A stretch of DNA of 64,000 nt from Nocardioides sp. HDW12B. GTDB lineage: Bacteria > Actinomycetota > Actinomycetes > Propionibacteriales > Nocardioidaceae. The stretch spans positions 2,418,001 to 2,482,000 of the forward strand of contig NZ_CP049867.1 in the NCBI RefSeq assembly GCF_011299595.1, given 5' to 3'. This document shows, one piece after another, positions 29,086-37,905 of the stretch. Below the pieces are notes generated by a model. It had not been told where the DNA came from, did no database searches, and worked only from the letters and a program-made list of their open reading frames with translations. The position numbers and the translations under genes were made by a program. How positions within the stretch are numbered: the first letter of the stretch is position 1; the number at the start of each line of letters is the position of its first letter.

Positions 29086-30001
29086 GGACGAGCTCCAGGG
29101 CGTGGGCGAGGTCGGCCGGGTAGGGCGACTCGTAGCTGACGTGCTCCCCCGTCCCGGGGTGCTCGAAGCCGAGGCGTACGGCGTGCAGCCACTGGCGTGT
29201 CAGGTCGAGGCGGGCCGCGAGGACCGGGTCGCCGCCGTACAGCGGGTCACCGGCGCAGGGGTGCTTGAGCGCCTGCATGTGGACCCGGATCTGGTGGGTG
29301 CGGCCGGTCTCGAGGTGGACCTCGAGCAGGCTGGCGAAGCGGTGGGCCTCGAGGGTGTCGTAGTGGGTGACGCTGTGGCGGCCGCCCTCGGCGACGTGGA
29401 ACTTGTGGTCGAAGCGCGGGTGGCGCGCGATCGGGGCGTCGATCGTGCCGCGCAACGGGTCGGGGTGGCCCTGGACCAGCGCGTGGTAGGTCTTGTCGAC
29501 CGTGCGGTGGCGGAAGGCGTTCTTGAGCCGGGAGTAGGCGACCTCGCCCTTGGCGATGACCATGACCCCGCTGGTGCCGACGTCGAGCCGCTGGACGATG
29601 CCCTGCCGCTCCGAGGCGCCGCTGGTGGCGATCCGGAAGCCGGCGGCGACGAGGTGGCCGACGACGGTGGGTCCGTTCCAGCCCGGGCTCGGGTGTACGG
29701 CGACCCCGACCGGCTTGTCGATGACGACCAGGGAGTCGTCGTCGTGGATGATCCCGATGCCCTCGACGATCTGGGGCACGATCGCCACCGGGTCACGCAG
29801 GTCGGGGATCTCGACGTCGAGCATCGCGCCGCCGTGGACCCGGTCGGACTTCGCCACGTCGCGCCCGTCGAGGCGGACGTGCCCGTCGGCGACGAGGTCG
29901 GCCGCGCGGGTGCGGGAGAAGCCGAACATGCGCGCCAGGCAGGCGTCGACGCGCTCGCCCTCCATGCCGTCGGGGACGAAGACGGTGCGGTGCTCGCTCA
30001 C
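29072..30001 (-). CDS. rluD: RluA/RluD-family 23S rRNA pseudouridine synthase
   Basis: The 309-aa enzyme isomerises uridines in large-subunit rRNA. It has an N-terminal S4 RNA-binding domain ([19 protein letters not shown]) and the catalytic aspartate in [12 protein letters not shown]. Further RluA-family blocks are [24 protein letters not shown] and [10 protein letters not shown]. The GTG start overlaps the lspA stop (GTGA). This lspA-rluD pairing is usual in many bacteria. The exact modified positions follow from the family, not from this sequence. Confidence 0.92.
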
Positions 30002-30549
30002 GGCGCGTTCCGCTCGCCGCGGAGGCTGATGCCGCGGAAGGCCTGCACGACGATGACGACCGCCGCCAGGTTGATGCACATGTCGGCGACGTTGAAGACC
30101 GGCCAGTTCGGCAGCTGGAACATGTCGACGACGTGGCCGCGCAACGGTCCGGGGTCGCGGAAGAGCCGGTCGGTCAGGTTGCCGAGGATGCCGCCGAGCA
30201 GCGCACCGAGCCCGACGGCCCAGAGCGGGTCGCCGACCTTGCGGGCGACGACGAGCACCACGACGGCGGCCACCATCGCGAAGATCGTGAGGTAGACCGT
30301 GGAGGACGTACCGAGGCTGAAGGCGGCGCCGGGGTTGAAGACCAGGGTGAGGCGGAACAGGTCCCCCACCACCTCGACGGGCTGCCCGCGCTCGAGCGCG
30401 GCGAGCGCCCAGGTCTTGGTGCCGAGGTCGACCAGGTAGGCCACCACGGCGACGGTCGCGAAGAGGCCGAGCCGACGTCGTCGGTCCGGCGGTGTCGGGG
30501 GGTGCTCGTCGTCGCTGTCGTTCAGCGACGCTCCTCGCGCTGCTTGCAT
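29998..30549 (-). CDS. lspA: Lipoprotein signal peptidase (signal peptidase II)
   Basis: The 183-aa inner-membrane aspartyl protease removes signal peptides from diacylglyceryl-modified prolipoproteins. Four hydrophobic segments are present. The catalytic aspartates lie in GNLTDRLF and FNVADM, and VFNPGAAFS is the conserved loop. An acidic, proline-rich N-terminus of about 25 residues precedes the first segment. The ATG at 30549 lies inside the end of the upstream gene (28-base overlap); a GTG at 30558 is an alternative. A likely client in this window is the lipoprotein encoded at 35954-36628. Confidence 0.93.
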
Positions 30550-31967
30550 GGCACGCACAGTGTGGCACGCGGGAACGCCATCAAACGATTCTTGCCGATG
30601 GCCTCACCGCAGCTCTCGCACCGGCCGTAGGTGCCGTCCTCGATGCGCTCGAGGGCGTGCTCGGTCTGGGTCAGCATGTCCCGCGCGTTGTTGGCGATGG
30701 ACACCTCGTGGTCGCGCTCGAAGGTGGCCGACCCGACGTCGGCCTGGTCGTGACCCGCCCCGTCCCCGGCGTCGCGCATGAGCCCGTCGAGCTCCTTCGC
30801 CGCCAGGTCCAGCTCGCCGCGCAGGCGCTCGACGTCGGCGGCCAGCTCGGCCTTGACCTGGTTGAGCTCCTTCGCCGTCCACGGCGACTCGTCGGCCTTC
30901 ACCGCCAGCGAGGAGGCGCGGATCGGGCCGGACTTCTTGGCCGGCTTCTTGGCCGTCGTCGGGGTCGCGGCCGTGGCCGTCTTCCGCGTCGCGGTCGTCG
31001 CGGCCGACGCGGTCTTCTTCGCAGCCGTCGCAGCAGCGGAGGCCGTCTTCTTGGCCGCGCTCGCGGCAGCAGCGGTCGCCGCGGCGGCAGCCGGTGCGGT
31101 CTTCTTCGCCGTGCTCGTCGACGAGGCCTTCGAGGTCGCGAGCTTCGCCGTCGACGCGGCCGGGGACGGCGCCTTCTTCGCGGCCGCCTTCTTCACCGAG
31201 GCCGTGGTCGCCGCCGACTGCTTCGCGGGCGCCGGAGCGGTCGCCTTGGTGGCCGACTTCTTCGTCGCGCTGGCCTTCTTCGACGCGCCGGCCTTCTTCG
31301 CCGTGGCCGTCGACGTGCCCTTCGTGGCGATGGCCTTCTTCGCCGCGGTCGCCTTCTTGACTGGCGTCGCCTTCTTCGCGGGCGTCGCCTTCGTCGCCGT
31401 GCTCGCTGACGCCTTCTTGACTGGCGTCGCCTTCTTGGTGGGCGTCGCCTTCGTCGCCGTGCTCGCTGTCGCCTTCTTGGCGGGCGTCGCCTTCTTCGCC
31501 GTGCTCGCGGCGGACGCCTTCTTGGCGGGGGCTGCCTTTGTGGCCGTGCTCTTCGCCGGGGCCTTCTTCGCCGGGGTCTTCTTCGCCGCACTCGCGGCGG
31601 GCGCCTTCTTGGCGGGGGCCGCCTTCGTGGCCGTGCTCTTCGCCGGGGTCTTCTTCGCTGGGGTCTTCTGCGCCGGAGCCTTCTTCGCCGGGGCCTTCGC
31701 GGCCGGCGCGGGCGACGGCGCCTTCGCGGCAGCCGCCTTCTTCACCGACGCGGCCGTGGCCGCCGACTGCTTCGCGGGTGCCGGCGCGGTCGACTTCGCC
31801 GAGGTCTTCTTCGCCGGGGACTTCTTCGCGGCGGCCTTCGCCGGCGCGGCGGCGGTCTTCGCGGCGGACTGGGCGGCGGACTTGGCGGCCTTCCCGCCCC
31901 GACCGGTGACGCGCTTGGCGGCAGCCGCCGTCTTGCCCGCCAGCTTGGCGGCGCTCATCCGAGCCAT
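30522..31967 (-). CDS. Histone H1-like lysine/alanine repeat domain fused to DksA/TraR zinc finger
   Basis: The 481-aa protein has two very different parts. Residues 1 to about 360 consist almost only of Lys, Ala, Thr, Pro and Ser in AKKA, PAKK and TKKA repeats, like eukaryotic histone H1 tails or HctB-type DNA condensers. Residues about 362-481 form a DksA/TraR-type domain: a helical hairpin, then a C4 zinc finger with Cys450, Cys453, Cys471 and Cys474 (C-x2-C-x17-C-x2-C). DksA-like proteins act in the secondary channel of RNA polymerase. The basic tail should bind DNA nonspecifically. The ATG follows AGAAGGG. Repeat DNA at 31000-31900 may vary in length between strains. It lies directly upstream of lspA. 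Confidence 0.85.
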
Positions 31968-32179
31968 CGTCGTGCCCTTCTCGAGAAGGAGATCGCTTCG
32001 CCGATGGGTGGAACACCTGGCCCCGCCCGGCGTACCTGCACGTCCCCAGCCCGCACAGTGCGGTGAGGATATGCCCGGGCACCCCCCAGGACAACAGGCC
32101 ACGCCACGCGCGAGGCCGCGAAGTCACGCCGGTCCGGATACCGAGTTGGTCGCGACCGGGGCGGCTGGCAGACTGGCAC
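31968..32179. other. Intergenic region between divergent H1/DksA-fusion gene and ileS leader
   Basis: No open reading frame with support was found in this stretch. A possible plus-strand promoter is TTGGTC near 32144 followed after 17 bases by CAGACT, a weak -10. It would place the start of the ileS transcript just before the T-box. The minus-strand promoter of the fusion gene must also lie here, but no clear TANNNT box could be fixed. Confidence 0.3.
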
Positions 32180-32485
32180 CCGCGTACGCACGGTGTCGAC
32201 GGGACGAGTAGGTCCGGGACCAGCCGAGAGCGACCTGGGGACGGTGGGAGCCCAGGGGTGTTGGCCGGATCGAAGATCACCCCGAGCCGCCGGAGGAGCG
32301 CCCCCGACCCCGGTCGCGGGCAGGTAGAACCGGCAGCGGACGTGCACGAGAGGGCTTCCCCCAGCACCACGGGAGGACGCCAAGGAGGGTGGTACCGCGG
32401 GACCGGCTCGATCGAGCGGCCTCGTCCCTTCGTCGCAGGATCGACGTACCCCCGGGTCGTCGAACGACAGACGAGGACGCACCCC
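32180..32485 (+). promoter_or_regulatory. T-box riboswitch for ileS, translational type
   Basis: The T-box sequence GGGTGGTACCGCGG ends at 32400; its TGGT (32390-32393) would pair with the ACCA end of uncharged tRNA. The likely specifier is ATC (32276-32278) in GAAGATCACCCC, an isoleucine codon that matches the gene downstream. Upstream motifs GACGAGTAG and CGAGAGC resemble stem I and the linker of actinobacterial T-boxes. No T-run terminator follows. Instead CCTCGTC (32420-32426) can pair with GACGAGG (32470-32476), which covers the ileS ribosome-binding site. Uncharged tRNA-Ile should free that site. Pairings were worked out by eye. Confidence 0.85.
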
Positions 32486-35400
32486 GTGGACACCAGCACC
32501 GACCGCCCCGGCGGCTCTTCCTACCGCCCGGTCCCCGCGCAGGTCGACCTGCCCGCGCTGGAGCACGAGGTGCTCGACCTCTGGCGGGAGAACGACACCT
32601 TCGCCGCGTCGCTGGAGCGCACCCGCGGCGCCGAGCCGTGGACCTTCTACGAGGGCCCGCCGACGGCCAACGGCCTGCCCGGCACCCACCACGTCGAGGC
32701 CCGCGTCTTCAAGGACGTCTTCCCGCGCTTCCGCACGATGCAGGGCTACCACGTCGAGCGGAAGGCCGGCTGGGACTGCCACGGCCTGCCCGTCGAGCTC
32801 GCGGTCGAGAAGGAGCTGGGCTTCACCGGCAAGAACGACATCGAGGCGTTCGGCGTCGCCGAGTTCAACGCCCGCTGCCGGGAGTCGGTGCTGCGCAACG
32901 TCGACCAGTTCGCGAAGATGACCGACCGGATGGGCTACTGGGTCGACCTCGAGCACGCCTACACCACCATGGCCCCCGAGTACGTCGAGTCGGTGTGGTG
33001 GGCGCTCAAGCAGATCCACACGTCGGGCCTGCTGGTCGAGGACCACCGGGTGGCGCCGTACTGCCCGCGCTGCGGCACCGGGCTGTCCGACCACGAGCTG
33101 GCCCAGGGCTACGAGACCGTCACCGACCCCAGCGTCTACGTGCGCTTCCCGCTGACCAGCGGCCCGCTCGCCGGGCGCGCGAGCCTGCTGGTGTGGACGA
33201 CGACCCCGTGGACGCTGGTGTCGAACACCGCGGTCGCGGTCAACCCCGAGGTCACCTACGTCGTGGCCACCGACGGCACCGAGACGCTCGTCGTCGCCGA
33301 GCCGCTGCTGGCGGAGACGCTCGGCGAGGGCTGGGAGGTGCTGGAGACGGTCGGCGGCGCGGACATGGAGCGCTGGACATACACCCGGCCCTTCGACCTC
33401 GTCGAGTTCCCCGCCGACGAGCCCGCGCACTACGTCGTGCTCGGCGACTACGTCACCACCGAGGACGGCTCGGGCCTGGTGCACCAGTCCCCCGCCTTCG
33501 GTGAGGAGGACATGGCGGTCTGCCGCCGCTACGGGCTGCCGGTGGTGAACCCGGTCAAGGCCGACGGCCACTTCGAGGACGCGATCCCGCTCGTCGGCGG
33601 GCAGTTCTTCAAGCACGCCGACGCCGACCTGGTGAGCGACCTCGAGGCTCGGGGGCTGCTGTTCCGCCACGTCGCCTTCGAGCACTCCTACCCGCACTGC
33701 TGGCGCTGCCACACCGCGCTCATGTACTACGCGCAGCCGTCCTGGTACGTCCGGACCACCGAGCGCAAGGACGAGCTGCTGCGCGAGAACGCGGCCACGA
33801 GCTGGCACCCCGAGACGATCCAGTGGGGCCGCTACGGCGACTGGCTCAACAACAACATCGACTGGGCGCTGTCACGGCGTCGCTACTGGGGCACGCCGTT
33901 GCCGATCTGGCGCTGCGAGGACGACCACCAGACGTGCGTCGGCTCGCGCGCCGAGCTGACCGAGCTGACCGGGACCGACCAGTCCGACCTGGACCCGCAC
34001 CGTCCGTTCGTCGACGACATCGTCTTCGCCTGCCCGGTCTCGACCGGCTCGACCACCTGTGGGCTCGAGGCCCGACGCGTACCCGAGGTCATCGACGCGT
34101 GGTTCGACAGCGGCTCGATGCCGTTCGCGCAGTGGGGCTACCCCCACGTCGAGGGCTCGAAGGAGCGCTTCGAGGCCGCGTTCCCGGCTGACTTCATCTG
34201 CGAGGCGATCGACCAGACCCGCGGCTGGTTCTACACGTTGATGGCGGTGAACACGCTGGTGTTCGACCGCTCGTCGTACAAGAACGTCGTGTGCCTGGGC
34301 CACATCCTGGCCGAGGACGGCCGCAAGATGAGCAAGCACCTCGGCAACATCCTCGAGCCGCTGCCGCTGATGGACCGCCACGGCGCCGACGCGGTGCGCT
34401 GGTTCATGGCCGCGTCCGGCTCCCCCTGGTCGGCGCGGCGCGTCGGGCACCAGGCGATCGAGGAGACCGTCCGCAAGGTGCTGCTGACCTACTGGAACAC
34501 GGTCGGCTTCCAGGCGCTCTACGCCCGGTCGGCGGGCTGGTCGCCGACCGACGCCGCGCCGGCGCCCGCCGAGCGGCACGTGCTCGACCGCTGGGCCCTC
34601 TCGGAGGCTCACCGGCTGGTCCGCGACGTCACCGAGGCGCTCGAGGGGTTCGACACCCAGCGCACCGGCGCACGCATCGCGGCGTACGTCGACGTGCTGT
34701 CGAACTGGTACGTCCGTCGCTCGCGGCGGCGCTTCTGGGCCGGCGACCCCGGCGCGCTGGCGACGCTGCACGAGTGCCTGCGGCTGGTGACGCTGGTGTC
34801 GGCGCCGCTGACGCCGTTCATCACCGAGCGTGTCTGGCAGGACCTCTTCGCCGCGACCGGAGCGGAGGCGTCGGTGCACCTGGCGTCGTGGCCCGAGGTC
34901 GACGAGGCGCTCGTCGACGTGGACCTCGACCGGCGCATGCAGCAGGCGCGCCGGATCGTCGAGCTGGGACGCGCGGCACGCGCCGACGCCAAGGTGCGCA
35001 CGCGGCAGCCGCTGCGGCGCGCGCTGGTGCCGTCGGCGGCGTGGTCGGCTCTCGGCGAGGACCTGCGGGGCGAGGTCGCCGAGGAGCTCAACATCGGCGC
35101 CGTCGAGTCGCTGGACTCGACCGGCGACCTGGTCGACGTCAGTGCGAAGGGCAACTTCCGCGCGCTCGGCAAGCGGTTCGCGAAGCGTACGCCGCAGGTG
35201 GCCGGTGCGATCGCTGCCGCCGACGCGGCCGTCCTGGCCGCCTCGCTGCGGGAGTCGGGCTCGGCATCGGTCGCCGTCGACGGCGAGGAGCTGTCGGTCA
35301 CCGCCGAGGAGGTCATCCTCTCCGAGCGTCCTCGCGAGGGCTGGTCGGTGGCCAACGAGCACGGCGAGACCGTCGCGCTCGACCTCGAGCTGACGCCGGA

Positions 35401-35653
35401 GCTGCGTCGAGCGGGACTCGCGCGCGAGGTCGTCCGGCTGGTGCAGGAGGCCCGGAAATCGAGCGGCTTCGAGGTCAGCGACCGGATCTCGCTGGTGTGG
35501 CAGGCCGACGGCGAGCTGGGCGAGGCGCTGGCCGAGCACGAGGCCGCCGTGGCCGACGAGGTCCTGGCGATCTCGGTGTCGCGCTCCGAGCCGAGCGGCG
35601 ACGTCCGCGAGGACGCCGACCTGGGGCTGCGGTTCTCGGTCGCCCGCGTCTGA
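32486..35653 (+). CDS. ileS: Isoleucyl-tRNA synthetase, type 2-like with GTHH signature
   Basis: The 1055-aa class I synthetase charges tRNA-Ile. The KMSKS loop reads KMSKH at 614-618. The ATP-binding HIGH motif is replaced by GTHH at residues 66-69 (ANGLPGTHHVEARVF). This exchanged GxHH order is described for some type 2 (eukaryote-like) IleRS enzymes and is linked to extreme mupirocin resistance. The editing domain (LLVWTTTPWTLVSNTAV) and anticodon-binding C-terminal part are present. It begins with GTG eight bases after GAGGA, and the leader carries an isoleucine T-box. The conserved TTTPWT editing motif indicates that valine proofreading is kept. Confidence 0.95.
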   Translation: MDTSTDRPGGSSYRPVPAQVDLPALEHEVLDLWRENDTFAASLERTRGAEPWTFYEGPPTANGLPGTHHVEARVFKDVFPRFRTMQGYHVERKAGWDCHGLPVELAVEKELGFTGKNDIEAFGVAEFNARCRESVLRNVDQFAKMTDRMGYWVDLEHAYTTMAPEYVESVWWALKQIHTSGLLVEDHRVAPYCPRCGTGLSDHELAQGYETVTDPSVYVRFPLTSGPLAGRASLLVWTTTPWTLVSNTAVAVNPEVTYVVATDGTETLVVAEPLLAETLGEGWEVLETVGGADMERWTYTRPFDLVEFPADEPAHYVVLGDYVTTEDGSGLVHQSPAFGEEDMAVCRRYGLPVVNPVKADGHFEDAIPLVGGQFFKHADADLVSDLEARGLLFRHVAFEHSYPHCWRCHTALMYYAQPSWYVRTTERKDELLRENAATSWHPETIQWGRYGDWLNNNIDWALSRRRYWGTPLPIWRCEDDHQTCVGSRAELTELTGTDQSDLDPHRPFVDDIVFACPVSTGSTTCGLEARRVPEVIDAWFDSGSMPFAQWGYPHVEGSKERFEAAFPADFICEAIDQTRGWFYTLMAVNTLVFDRSSYKNVVCLGHILAEDGRKMSKHLGNILEPLPLMDRHGADAVRWFMAASGSPWSARRVGHQAIEETVRKVLLTYWNTVGFQALYARSAGWSPTDAAPAPAERHVLDRWALSEAHRLVRDVTEALEGFDTQRTGARIAAYVDVLSNWYVRRSRRRFWAGDPGALATLHECLRLVTLVSAPLTPFITERVWQDLFAATGAEASVHLASWPEVDEALVDVDLDRRMQQARRIVELGRAARADAKVRTRQPLRRALVPSAAWSALGEDLRGEVAEELNIGAVESLDSTGDLVDVSAKGNFRALGKRFAKRTPQVAGAIAAADAAVLAASLRESGSASVAVDGEELSVTAEEVILSERPREGWSVANEHGETVALDLELTPELRRAGLAREVVRLVQEARKSSGFEVSDRISLVWQADGELGEALAEHEAAVADEVLAISVSRSEPSGDVREDADLGLRFSVARV

Positions 35654-35683: not shown

Positions 35684-35850
35684 CCTCACGTCGTTGACGA
35701 CGTGGAGCAGCACGCCGTACGTCGTTGACGACCTGAGGCACCACGCCGTAGGTCGTTGGCGACGTGAGGCCTCTGCCAGCAGCCCCTGGACCGTCCCCAT
35801 GTCGTTGACGACCTGAGGCAGCACGCCGTACGTCGTTCACGACGTGAGGC
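35684..35850. repeat. Cluster of five palindromic repeat units after ileS
   Basis: Units with the core GTCGTTGACGACSTGAGGC begin near 35684, 35714, 35745, 35795 and 35824. Neighbouring units are about 31 bp apart and share the linker CASCACGCCGTA. Each core is nearly self-complementary (CCTCACGTCGT pairs with ACGACGTGAGG). A diverged sixth copy lies at 61725-61748. There are no unique spacers, so this is not a CRISPR array. With the hairpin that follows, it fills most of the 300-bp gap after ileS; no gene was found there. Confidence 0.85.
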
Positions 35851-35867
35851 TGGGCGGAGGCGAGTTC

Positions 35868-35916
35868 TCATACGCCTGGACGGTCAGGACGGCCCCCGGA
35901 CCGTCCAGGCGTATGA
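35868..35916. terminator. Strong hairpin with 18-bp perfect stem
   Basis: The arms (35868-35885 and 35899-35916, beginning TCATACGCCTGG) pair perfectly over 18 bases around a 13-base loop. It lies between ileS and the convergent lipoprotein gene, where a bidirectional terminator is expected. There is no T-run. The length and perfection of the stem exceed what termination needs. Confidence 0.7.
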
Positions 35917-35953
35917 CGAGCGCGCGCCGGCCGGGTTGGCTCGACGATCGGGG

Positions 35954-36628
35954 TCACGGCTCCGCGATCGTCAGGTCGACGGCTCGGAGACGACCGTGCC
36001 GGTCGGCGGCGAGCACCAGGGCGAAGTCGTTCGCGCAGGTGCGGTCACCCAGGCTGGGTCTGAGGACCACCCGCCGCCCGGACGGCACCGGACCGGTCCT
36101 CGTCGGTGCACAGGTGACGGCTCCGACCCGCGGGGTGAGGACGAGGGTGCGGCCGTTCGCCTCGGCGTTGGTGATCTGCGCAAGGGAGTCCACCGGGCAG
36201 GACCCGGCGCCGTACGTCGTCCAGCCGGGCGGGCAGCTCCTCCACGTCCGACGCGTCGACAGCGCCTGCGAGAGGTCGTCGAGCGTGCCGGCCGCCTCTC
36301 CGCCGAGCGACAAGGAGATCGTGACAGCGTGCGGGAACGTGCGCGCATCACCCACGGCGTACGCCACGAACGACGTCGCCAGGCGCACCAGGTCGGGGTC
36401 GACCGCGGCGGGGCGGCCGTCCGGCAGCAGCTGAGCGGGCCGTTCGTCGCGCTCGCGCACGGACGACCCGGACGACGGTCCGCGGGGCGACGCGGCGTGG
36501 CGGCTGTCCGTCGACGGCTTCGCGGGAGGAGCGGGGGTCGCAGCCTCGTTGCCGCCGCTGCAACCGCCGAGGCCGATCCCCACGACGAGCGTCACCACTC
36601 CTGCGACGACCTTCTGCACGGCGTTCAT
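35954..36628 (-). CDS. Putative secreted lipoprotein
   Basis: The 224-aa protein has a lipoprotein signal peptide: a positive start, a hydrophobic core (VVAGVVTLVVGIGLGG) and the lipobox LGGC at about residue 23. A Pro/Ser/Thr-rich linker follows. The folded part has five cysteines, including RSCPPGWTTYGAGSCP and GDRTCAND, which probably form disulfides outside the membrane. No domain is recognised. The start at 36628 places the lipobox normally; an ATG six codons upstream is possible. Processing would need the LspA encoded in this window. Confidence 0.7.
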   Translation of the reverse strand: MNAVQKVVAGVVTLVVGIGLGGCSGGNEAATPAPPAKPSTDSRHAASPRGPSSGSSVRERDERPAQLLPDGRPAAVDPDLVRLATSFVAYAVGDARTFPHAVTISLSLGGEAAGTLDDLSQALSTRRTWRSCPPGWTTYGAGSCPVDSLAQITNAEANGRTLVLTPRVGAVTCAPTRTGPVPSGRRVVLRPSLGDRTCANDFALVLAADRHGRLRAVDLTIAEP

Positions 36629-36724
36629 GTCACTGACACTCCCCACGGAGCCGCGAGGTTGTCGTCGACGCCCGTGTGGGGCTCATCCGTCCGAGGGCCA
36701 CTGATCGCCGCTCATGATCCTGAG

Positions 36725-36797: not shown

Positions 36798-37841
36798 TCA
36801 GGCGTGGGGGCGAGAGCCGTCCTCGGTCGCCTCGCCCTGGTCCTCACCGGACGCCTCGGAGCCTGCCGCGTCGGAGCCTGCCGCGTCGGAGTCCGCCGCG
36901 TCGGAGCCTGCCGCGTCGGAGTCTGTCGAGCCAGACTCGCTGGACTCCTCCTCGGCGAGGATCGAGCGCAGGCGTGAGCCGATCTCGCCCTCGTCCTCGT
37001 GGAGGTCCTCGGCGAGCGTGACGCCGCCACCCTGGGCGTCGAGCGCCTCCAGCTGCTGCTGGAAGTAGTTGCGGAGCTGGGCGCGGTACTCGCGCTCGAA
37101 GACGCGCAGGTCCTCGACCTCGTCCTTGAGCTCCTGGTGGTCACGCTCCAGCTCGGCCACCAGGGCCGTGCGGCGCTGCTCGGTCTCGCCGTCGAGCTGC
37201 TCGGCCCGTCCGGACGCCTCGGCCACGATGCGGTCGGCCTGGCTGCGTGCGTCGGTGACGAGCTCCTCGGCGTTGCGGCCGGCCAGCTCGAGCATGCGTG
37301 CGGCCGCCGCAGCGGCCTCCTCGGTGGTCGCGACGCGCAGCAGCTCGCCCCGGGTGCCGGACACCCGGGCCACCTCGGTGTCGCCCTCGGCCAGCTCCTC
37401 CTCGGCCTCGGCGGAGTGGGTCCCGGCCGCAGGAGCCGTGTCGTCCGCCTCGGCGTCGGACGTCGCGCTCGACACGTCCGCCTCGCTCGCGCCGTCCTCG
37501 GCGTGCCTGCCCTCGGGCTCGTCGGCCCCGTCCGCGCTCGTCGTACCGGTGTCCGCCTCGGTGTCGGACGCCTTCGCCTCCGTGGTGTCGTCACCCGCCG
37601 AGTCGTCGGTCGCGGCGGGCGTGCTCTCGCCGGTCGCCGACGCGGCGGTGGTCTGCTCCTCGGTGGGACCGCCGGAGCCGGACGCCTGGGACCGCAGCTC
37701 GGCGATCTCGTCGTGCAGGCGCTTCATCTCCGCGGCGACCTCGTCGAGGAAGTTGTCGACCTCGGTCATGTCGTAGCCCTGGCGCATCACGCGGGCCGTG
37801 GCGAAGCGCTTGTTATCCACGTCCTCGGGGGTCAAGGGCAC
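36798..37841 (-). CDS. wag31: DivIVA/Wag31 polar growth protein
   Basis: The 347-aa protein starts with the DivIVA membrane-binding domain (PLTPEDVDNKRFATARVM, then GYDMTEVDNFLDEVAAEM). An acidic disordered linker rich in Ser, Thr, Asp and Glu (about 70-160) follows. Next is a coiled coil (about 175-285), and then a tail of SDAAG repeats. Wag31 marks the cell pole and directs new wall synthesis in actinobacteria. The start is GTG at 37841, five bases after AAAGGTGA, which excludes a longer frame. The linker and tail are longer than in mycobacteria. Position at the end of the dcw cluster is canonical. Confidence 0.93.
   Translation of the reverse strand: MPLTPEDVDNKRFATARVMRQGYDMTEVDNFLDEVAAEMKRLHDEIAELRSQASGSGGPTEEQTTAASATGESTPAATDDSAGDDTTEAKASDTEADTGTTSADGADEPEGRHAEDGASEADVSSATSDAEADDTAPAAGTHSAEAEEELAEGDTEVARVSGTRGELLRVATTEEAAAAAARMLELAGRNAEELVTDARSQADRIVAEASGRAEQLDGETEQRRTALVAELERDHQELKDEVEDLRVFEREYRAQLRNYFQQQLEALDAQGGGVTLAEDLHEDEGEIGSRLRSILAEEESSESGSTDSDAAGSDAADSDAAGSDAAGSEASGEDQGEATEDGSRPHA
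36861..36920. repeat. 15-bp tandem repeat in divIVA, four copies
   Basis: The unit GCCTGCCGCGTCGGA occurs at 36861, 36876 and 36906, with a variant (GTCCGCCGCGTCGGA) at 36891. It encodes the SDAAG repeats in the C-terminal tail. The unit length is a multiple of three, so copy changes keep the frame. Confidence 0.85.
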
Positions 37842-37905
37842 GAGATCACCTTTCGGGGGCGGCAGGGTCGAGCACACCGTACCGCTGGGACAGGTGCCCT
37901 CGGAG

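Follow-up and report, generated by a model that had tools for sequence, protein, structure and literature searches.

In class I enzymes, the first histidine of the HxGH signature is catalytic. A rearranged form of this signature, G/AxHH, has been described in 86 of 379 isoleucyl-tRNA synthetases (IleRS), exclusively in type 2 enzymes (IleRS2), and the residue X of GxHH is given as Ile, Val, Leu, Met or Tyr (Brkic 2023, PMC10485003). For the ALHH IleRS2 of Deinococcus radiodurans, the mupirocin Ki is 6.6 mM and becomes 823-fold lower when HVGH is restored, and GVHH introduced into the Thermus and Priestia IleRS2 raises the Ki about 200-fold or more at a catalytic cost of at most tenfold, the structure of a GVHH mutant showing accommodation of the third His (PMC10485003). 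In the actinobacteria, a mupirocin Ki of 10 mM has been reported for the IleRS2 of Streptomyces griseus (Cvetesic 2016, PMC4861432), and bifidobacteria are intrinsically resistant to mupirocin via an atypical IleRS (PMC3714544). For actinobacterial ileS genes, a T-box leader that sequesters the Shine-Dalgarno sequence has been proposed (Seliverstov 2005, PMC1262725). Both the swapped motif and its association with mupirocin Ki values in the millimolar range are already published (PMC10485003, PMC4861432), in agreement with the first-pass annotation, which had connected the GxHH order with very strong resistance, and the enzyme analyzed here is one more case.

The window, a stretch of 64,000 nucleotides from Nocardioides sp. 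HDW12B (NZ_CP049867.1), encodes on its forward strand an ileS gene (32486..35653) with a GTG start and a 1055-residue product. The protein matches the TIGR00392 (ileS) model with 875.4 bits against a cut-off of 621.4, and Pfam identifies a class I catalytic domain, Anticodon_1 and DUF5915. In this frame, from the GTG at 32486 through a stop codon that ends at 35653, the codons GGC ACC CAC CAC (32681..32692) encode G66-T67-H68-H69 where H-x-G-H is expected, confirming the replacement first reported at residues 66-69; the coordinates originally assigned to it, 32680-32695, bracket the actual motif. As in the non-canonical IleRS2 defined by Brkic (PMC10485003), which have Gly/Ala at position 1 and His at positions 3 and 4, the motif begins with Gly and ends with two His residues. 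Its X, Thr, lies outside the residues listed in the accessible parts of that paper, and in relatives X is often Ala, Phe or Ser. The top PDB match by sequence is 8c8w, whose G-V-H-H aligns with the window motif and which has GVHH where its near-twin 8c8v has HVGH; 8c8w appears to be the Priestia megaterium GVHH mutant from PMC10485003. The second class I motif is KMSKH (residues 614-618, 34325..34339), and the CP1 editing motif, HQSPAFGEED, retains its His and Asp. In the alignment to E. coli IleRS, Thr60 (32663..32665) occupies the position of Tyr59, a residue tied to tRNA-dependent pre-transfer editing (PMC4861432). After removal of identical sequences (304 reduced to 292), this position was found to hold Thr in 234 of 237 distinct GxHH sequences and Phe in 45 of 45 HYGH sequences. 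Given the editing role of Tyr59 and the presence of Thr versus Phe in its place, an exchange between GxHH and HYGH may alter proofreading too.

The absence of the C-terminal CxxC pair (none is found past residue 420, against two in E. coli IleRS), the presence of Anticodon_1 and DUF5915 and placement in the GxHH clade all identify the protein as a type 2 IleRS, the class to which the first-pass annotation had linked the exchanged motif. An IQ-TREE quick tree with 93 rows, comprising IleRS1 and IleRS2, groups the window enzyme with type 2 and separates it from the IleRS1 rows (E. coli L235, L105 and L315) by a branch with support of 100, which rules out type 1 identity; long-branch warnings concern L317, L235, L102 and L307, none of them close to the window. 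The window enzyme is joined to a row of its own genus (SH-aLRT 99) within the GxHH clade, where nearby rows belong to the same family (Nocardioidaceae) and order, Streptomyces, Kribbella, Propionibacteriaceae and Aeromicrobium, and 31 Actinomycetes-type HYGH rows form a clade of their own (support 100). An acquired MupA-like gene was ruled out, since the NCBIfam models for MupA and MupB score 751 and 737 bits against a cut-off of 1900. The genome consists of a single contig of 4,192,138 bases, and the search for a second ileS that had been suggested at the outset found none on it: with the protein as query, other matches reach at most 92.6 bits, and with the family model the remaining matches reach at most 209.2 bits, below the TIGR00392 cut-off, and are presumably ValRS, LeuRS, MetRS and CysRS. 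This result covers the one 4.19 Mb contig, and small extra replicons would escape it.

Across 304 extracted IleRS proteins (loci with a motif match and an open frame of at least 600 residues, duplicate loci included), GxHH was found in 244, HYGH in 50 and other motifs in ten, and no HxHH or GxGH intermediates occurred among the 304. All 29 GxHH-type family loci inspected carry GTHH, and this conservation of GxHH in relatives rules out chance or sequencing error as the source of the motif. GxHH was also read in 109 of 109 loci in the range L106-L214 and, among the phylum-sample matches listed, in 30 of 30 loci from the best matches and in 75 of 80 further loci (L236-L315); some 40 genomes of that sample, with best E values of about 1e-68 to 1e-119, fall mostly outside the motif reading, and the two whose loci were read (L105, L315) are IleRS1-like with HLGT. 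Judged on identity alone and counted by hand, 114 of the 143 class genomes with a match are GxHH-like (at least 57% identity) and 29 are HYGH-like (about 40-46%). GxHH is the commonest form among the actinobacterial IleRS2 compared and, since it prevails in both the sampled loci and the class genomes, GTHH represents the normal state in much of the class. Some IleRS2 motifs also lack the fourth His, namely AVHT (L103, L309), GVHT (L310) and GVHN (L307), each of these loci being the sole match at E 1e-60 in its own genome. Within the GxHH clade, beside a GIHH row, locus L243 (genome G084) carries HIGH, having naturally reverted to the canonical order.

The gene order in the window is dnaE, rluD, lspA and traR, all on the reverse strand, ileS on the forward strand, and then a lipoprotein-like ORF, divIVA, yggT, sepF and ftsZ, again all on the reverse strand. 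The slot is flanked on one side by lspA (signal peptidase II; 29998..30558, reverse strand; PF01252) and the ORF of a DksA/TraR-type zinc-finger protein (traR; 30522..32102, reverse strand; PF01258), a mechanical ORF with its start unset, and on the other by divIVA (36798..37877, reverse strand; PF05103), which is separated from ileS by the lipoprotein-like ORF (35954..36646, reverse strand), an ORF without a Pfam match. Searching the window genes in 20 neighbourhoods located the GTHH gene in this divIVA-ileS-lspA slot, on the strand opposite to its neighbours, in all five GxHH loci examined. In six of six loci of genus g149, the HYGH ileS is likewise flanked by lspA and divIVA and transcribed in the direction opposite to theirs; the HYGH genes of L223 (g234) and L224 (g226) occupy the slot but on the strand of their neighbours, and those of five family loci (L221, L222, L225, L226 and L227) lie outside it. 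By eye, imperfect repeats of CGTCGTTGACGAC-type units were noted right after the ileS stop (35690-35860), and the stretch separating ileS from the lipoprotein-like ORF showed a long inverted repeat (35868-35920), TCATACGCCTGGACGGTC ... GACCGTCCAGGCGTATGA, which is possibly a bidirectional terminator.

Upstream of ileS, on the same strand, the leader presents the elements of a T-box. A long-form Stem I region (32201..32282) and the T-box sequence AGGGTGGTACCGCG (32386..32399), the 5' part of the antisequestrator, are present, and a restricted scan yielded two partial matches to RF00230, at 30.1 bits (Stem I, E 8.2e-5) and 20.4 bits, below the gathering score of 93. An Rfam scan of the window at the gathering score returned no T-box match; the leaders of known relatives score similarly low against RF00230. 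AUC (Ile) at 32276..32278 is a candidate specifier codon. In the MFE fold, CCUCGUC (32420..32426), which overlaps the 3' arm of the antisequestrator, forms the 5' arm of a sequestrator by pairing with GACGAGG (32470..32476), which lies over a Shine-Dalgarno-like GAGGA (32473-32477). Sequestrator and antisequestrator are mutually exclusive. The fold as a whole is no better than those of shuffled sequences (z -1.27; 14 of 100 shuffles are at least as stable). A translational T-box probably governs expression, in which uncharged tRNA-Ile would pair with the AUC specifier and free the Shine-Dalgarno sequence, and charged tRNA-Ile would leave the latter covered by the sequestrator. The initial view of this gene as a housekeeping, T-box-regulated copy agrees with its being the only IleRS found and with a leader in which an AUC specifier occurs together with a sequestrator of the Shine-Dalgarno sequence.

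The T-box sequence was found upstream of ileS in 26 of the 29 family GTHH loci and in all six g149 HYGH loci, and in none of five g149-type GTHH loci (the three remaining family loci, L047 and Aeromicrobium terrae L168). The canonical Stem I pattern is present in 97 of 149 T-box-bearing GxHH leaders versus 0 of 45 HxGH leaders, and Stem I has the long form in the window but the short form in other family members. A hairpin, GCCG-UCAUCA-GCGGC, is common to the family HYGH leaders with the exception of L225, whose leader resembles that of its tree neighbour L083. From these patterns, leader and gene can be read as having moved together, in more than one acquisition.

The two IleRS2 types form a mosaic across the family, in which 193 of the 197 genomes searched had an IleRS match. 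By hand count, the best match was of the GxHH type in 103 of these 193 (102 listed rows with at least 67% identity and one resolved 62% fragment), and 90 presented only a distant IleRS2 (40-48% identity); the motif was HYGH in all 23 of the distant-type genomes in which it was inspected. All 70 genomes of the Nocardioides-like genus g150 with a match are of the HYGH type by score (eight of eight inspected read HYGH), genus g149 comprises 40 GxHH-type and 8 HYGH-type genomes, and the window genus (g1) comprises four GxHH genomes and one HYGH genome, the latter represented by a fragment from a genome of 82% completeness. Among the genomes resolved, pieces of both types were found only in G382 (480 contigs, contamination 3%), a check that leaves out second pieces in G353, G366, G478, G399, G469, G473, G491 and G503; outside the family, G162 carries a GVHH gene and a HYGH gene together. 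In the 93-row IleRS tree, Aeromicrobium terrae (L168) nests within the g149 rows, and the HYGH rows of the family fall within groups of HYGH rows from other families. One family genome, G509 (one contig, 100% complete), presented only weaker synthetase matches and no IleRS, which is absent, masked or on a replicon outside the searched sequence.

We consider it highly probable that the window ileS is a vertically inherited, housekeeping GxHH IleRS2 gene with a probable translational T-box, and that HYGH enzymes replaced it repeatedly in relatives. The hyper-resistant GxHH gene would have given way several times to HYGH IleRS2, since in those relatives a distant HYGH IleRS2 that has a short-stem T-box of its own occupies the slot or is present in the cell, and the window lineage would have kept GxHH. 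On an rpoB+gyrA tree of 29 genomes, hand-picked (29-30 in the species trees) and enriched for exceptions, IleRS type requires at least six changes, five of them forced by well-supported branches; this tree keeps genera together, one of the six changes can stem from the HYGH outgroup, and G360 (no rpoB) and the gyrA of G418 are omitted. On a dnaE tree built from these genomes the count rises to 11, but genera are split, and rpoB+gyrA was preferred as a basis for counting; because the dnaE tree gives 11 changes without clustering beyond that of shuffled labels (402 of 500 label shuffles are as low), the exact number of replacements is unsure. Hence, as the two trees differ in count and quality, several exchanges are well supported, and their exact number and direction less so. 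The window copy looks like the inherited state and the relatives appear to have replaced theirs, a direction read from outgroups and the tree rather than from formal reconstruction. It is unlikely that the reverse holds, with HYGH as the ancestral family type and GTHH gained by transfer in the window lineage. Such a gain would fit the HYGH types throughout g150 and the existence of mobile GxHH copies (on a Rhodococcus opacus plasmid and as an extra copy in G757, described below), but the GxHH tree tracks taxonomy (genus, family, Propionibacteriaceae, Kribbella, Streptomyces), the window lying well within it, slot and orientation are shared with the Streptomyces-type locus L234, and it is the family HYGH rows that nest among those of other families.

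In an inherited GxHH enzyme of this kind, His68, the third residue of the motif, would substitute for the missing first His in contacts with ATP and the transition state, as in the enzymes studied in PMC10485003, and its bulk would clash with mupirocin. Because His68 would both take over these contacts and clash with the drug, catalysis would be kept and mupirocin bound only in the millimolar range (PMC10485003), and it is a strong prediction that the window IleRS would be nearly immune to mupirocin. That GTHH is instead neutral and specific to the lineage, hardly affecting mupirocin because other residues differ, is very unlikely. Its Thr at X and its KMSKH, rather than KMSKS, do fall outside the enzymes assayed in the accessible parts of PMC10485003 and PMC4861432, and the Ki values of canonical-motif IleRS2 already vary about fivefold (0.20 vs 1.08 uM; PMC10485003, Table 1), but S. 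griseus, wild-type D. radiodurans and the Pm and Tt swap mutants all gain 170- to >1000-fold (PMC10485003, PMC4861432). Moreover, the S. griseus enzyme and that of the window come from a single Actinomycetes GxHH lineage. There is next to no likelihood that the GTHH protein is a degenerate or specialised copy rather than the housekeeping IleRS: loss of the catalytic first His could suggest inactivity, but the protein is full length with its KMSK motif and editing-site His-Asp intact, slot and T-box are conserved, GxHH is usual among relatives, and a second or degenerate copy was rejected because this is the sole IleRS found in the one-contig genome.

Beyond vertical inheritance in the window lineage and replacement in its relatives, it is possible, although we put this forward only tentatively, that the family ileS slot is an allele-exchange site at which GTHH and HYGH swap repeatedly together with their leaders, with inhibitors and cost driving opposite directions. 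The hyper-resistant GTHH allele would combine Thr at the pre-transfer editing position with a long-stem T-box or none, and the normal-motif HYGH allele Phe with a short-stem T-box; natural IleRS inhibitors from neighbours, perhaps including the product of a Rhodococcus plasmid cluster that contains a GTHH ileS, would drive the exchange one way, and a cost in catalysis or fidelity would drive it back. If so, close species would differ by orders of magnitude in their tolerance to mupirocin-like IleRS inhibitors.

The Rhodococcus opacus plasmid (NZ_CP095404.2; L316:9980-13135) carries a GTHH ileS with 61% identity to the window IleRS; NRPS-like condensation, AMP-binding and carrier genes come immediately before it, and an LLM flavin oxidoreductase follows. 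This may be a self-resistance copy in an IleRS-inhibitor cluster; a literature search for a Rhodococcus plasmid cluster with ileS found no paper. One of 401 sampled genomes of family f4 (G757; L445/L446) has an extra GVHH ileS beside an IclR regulator, in addition to a HYGH gene, and this extra copy does not lie within the plasmid's cluster. The biochemistry is known, and repeated in-place swapping within one family is the modestly new part: no title on in-slot exchange of the two IleRS2 types came up among the publications listed on GXHH, intrinsic mupirocin resistance and actinobacterial ileS transfer. The family offers natural matched pairs, close species with GTHH or HYGH in the same ileS slot, through which the cost and gain of the swapped motif could be assessed in living cells, beyond mutant enzymes in vitro, and which predict mupirocin tolerance from genome sequence alone.

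Of the described systems, the S. griseus IleRS2 shares with the window enzyme its type, its actinobacterial origin and the swapped motif (PMC10485003), and has Thr or Phe for Tyr59, like the Thr of the window (PMC4861432); it comes from another genus, and Streptomyces tree rows present GAHH rather than GTHH. The D. radiodurans IleRS2 is likewise a sole-type housekeeping enzyme with a naturally swapped motif, but has Ala at position 1 and belongs to a separate IleRS2 clade (PMC10485003). The P. megaterium GVHH mutant (probably 8c8w; Brkic 2023) presents G-x-H-H at the matching place, but was engineered from a Bacillota enzyme that naturally has HVGH (PMC10485003). MupA of staphylococcal plasmids is also a type 2 IleRS that gives mupirocin resistance, but is an acquired plasmid gene with an HTGH motif and about 37% identity to the window IleRS. 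The Actinomycetes HYGH IleRS2 (e.g. L066, L215-L227) share type 2 identity, a T-box leader and, in some relatives, the same slot, but differ in their canonical-order HYGH motif, the Phe that stands in for Tyr59, a short Stem I and an identity of about 42%. With respect to the leader, nothing essential distinguishes the window from the actinobacterial ileS translational T-box as presented in the accessible parts of PMC1262725.
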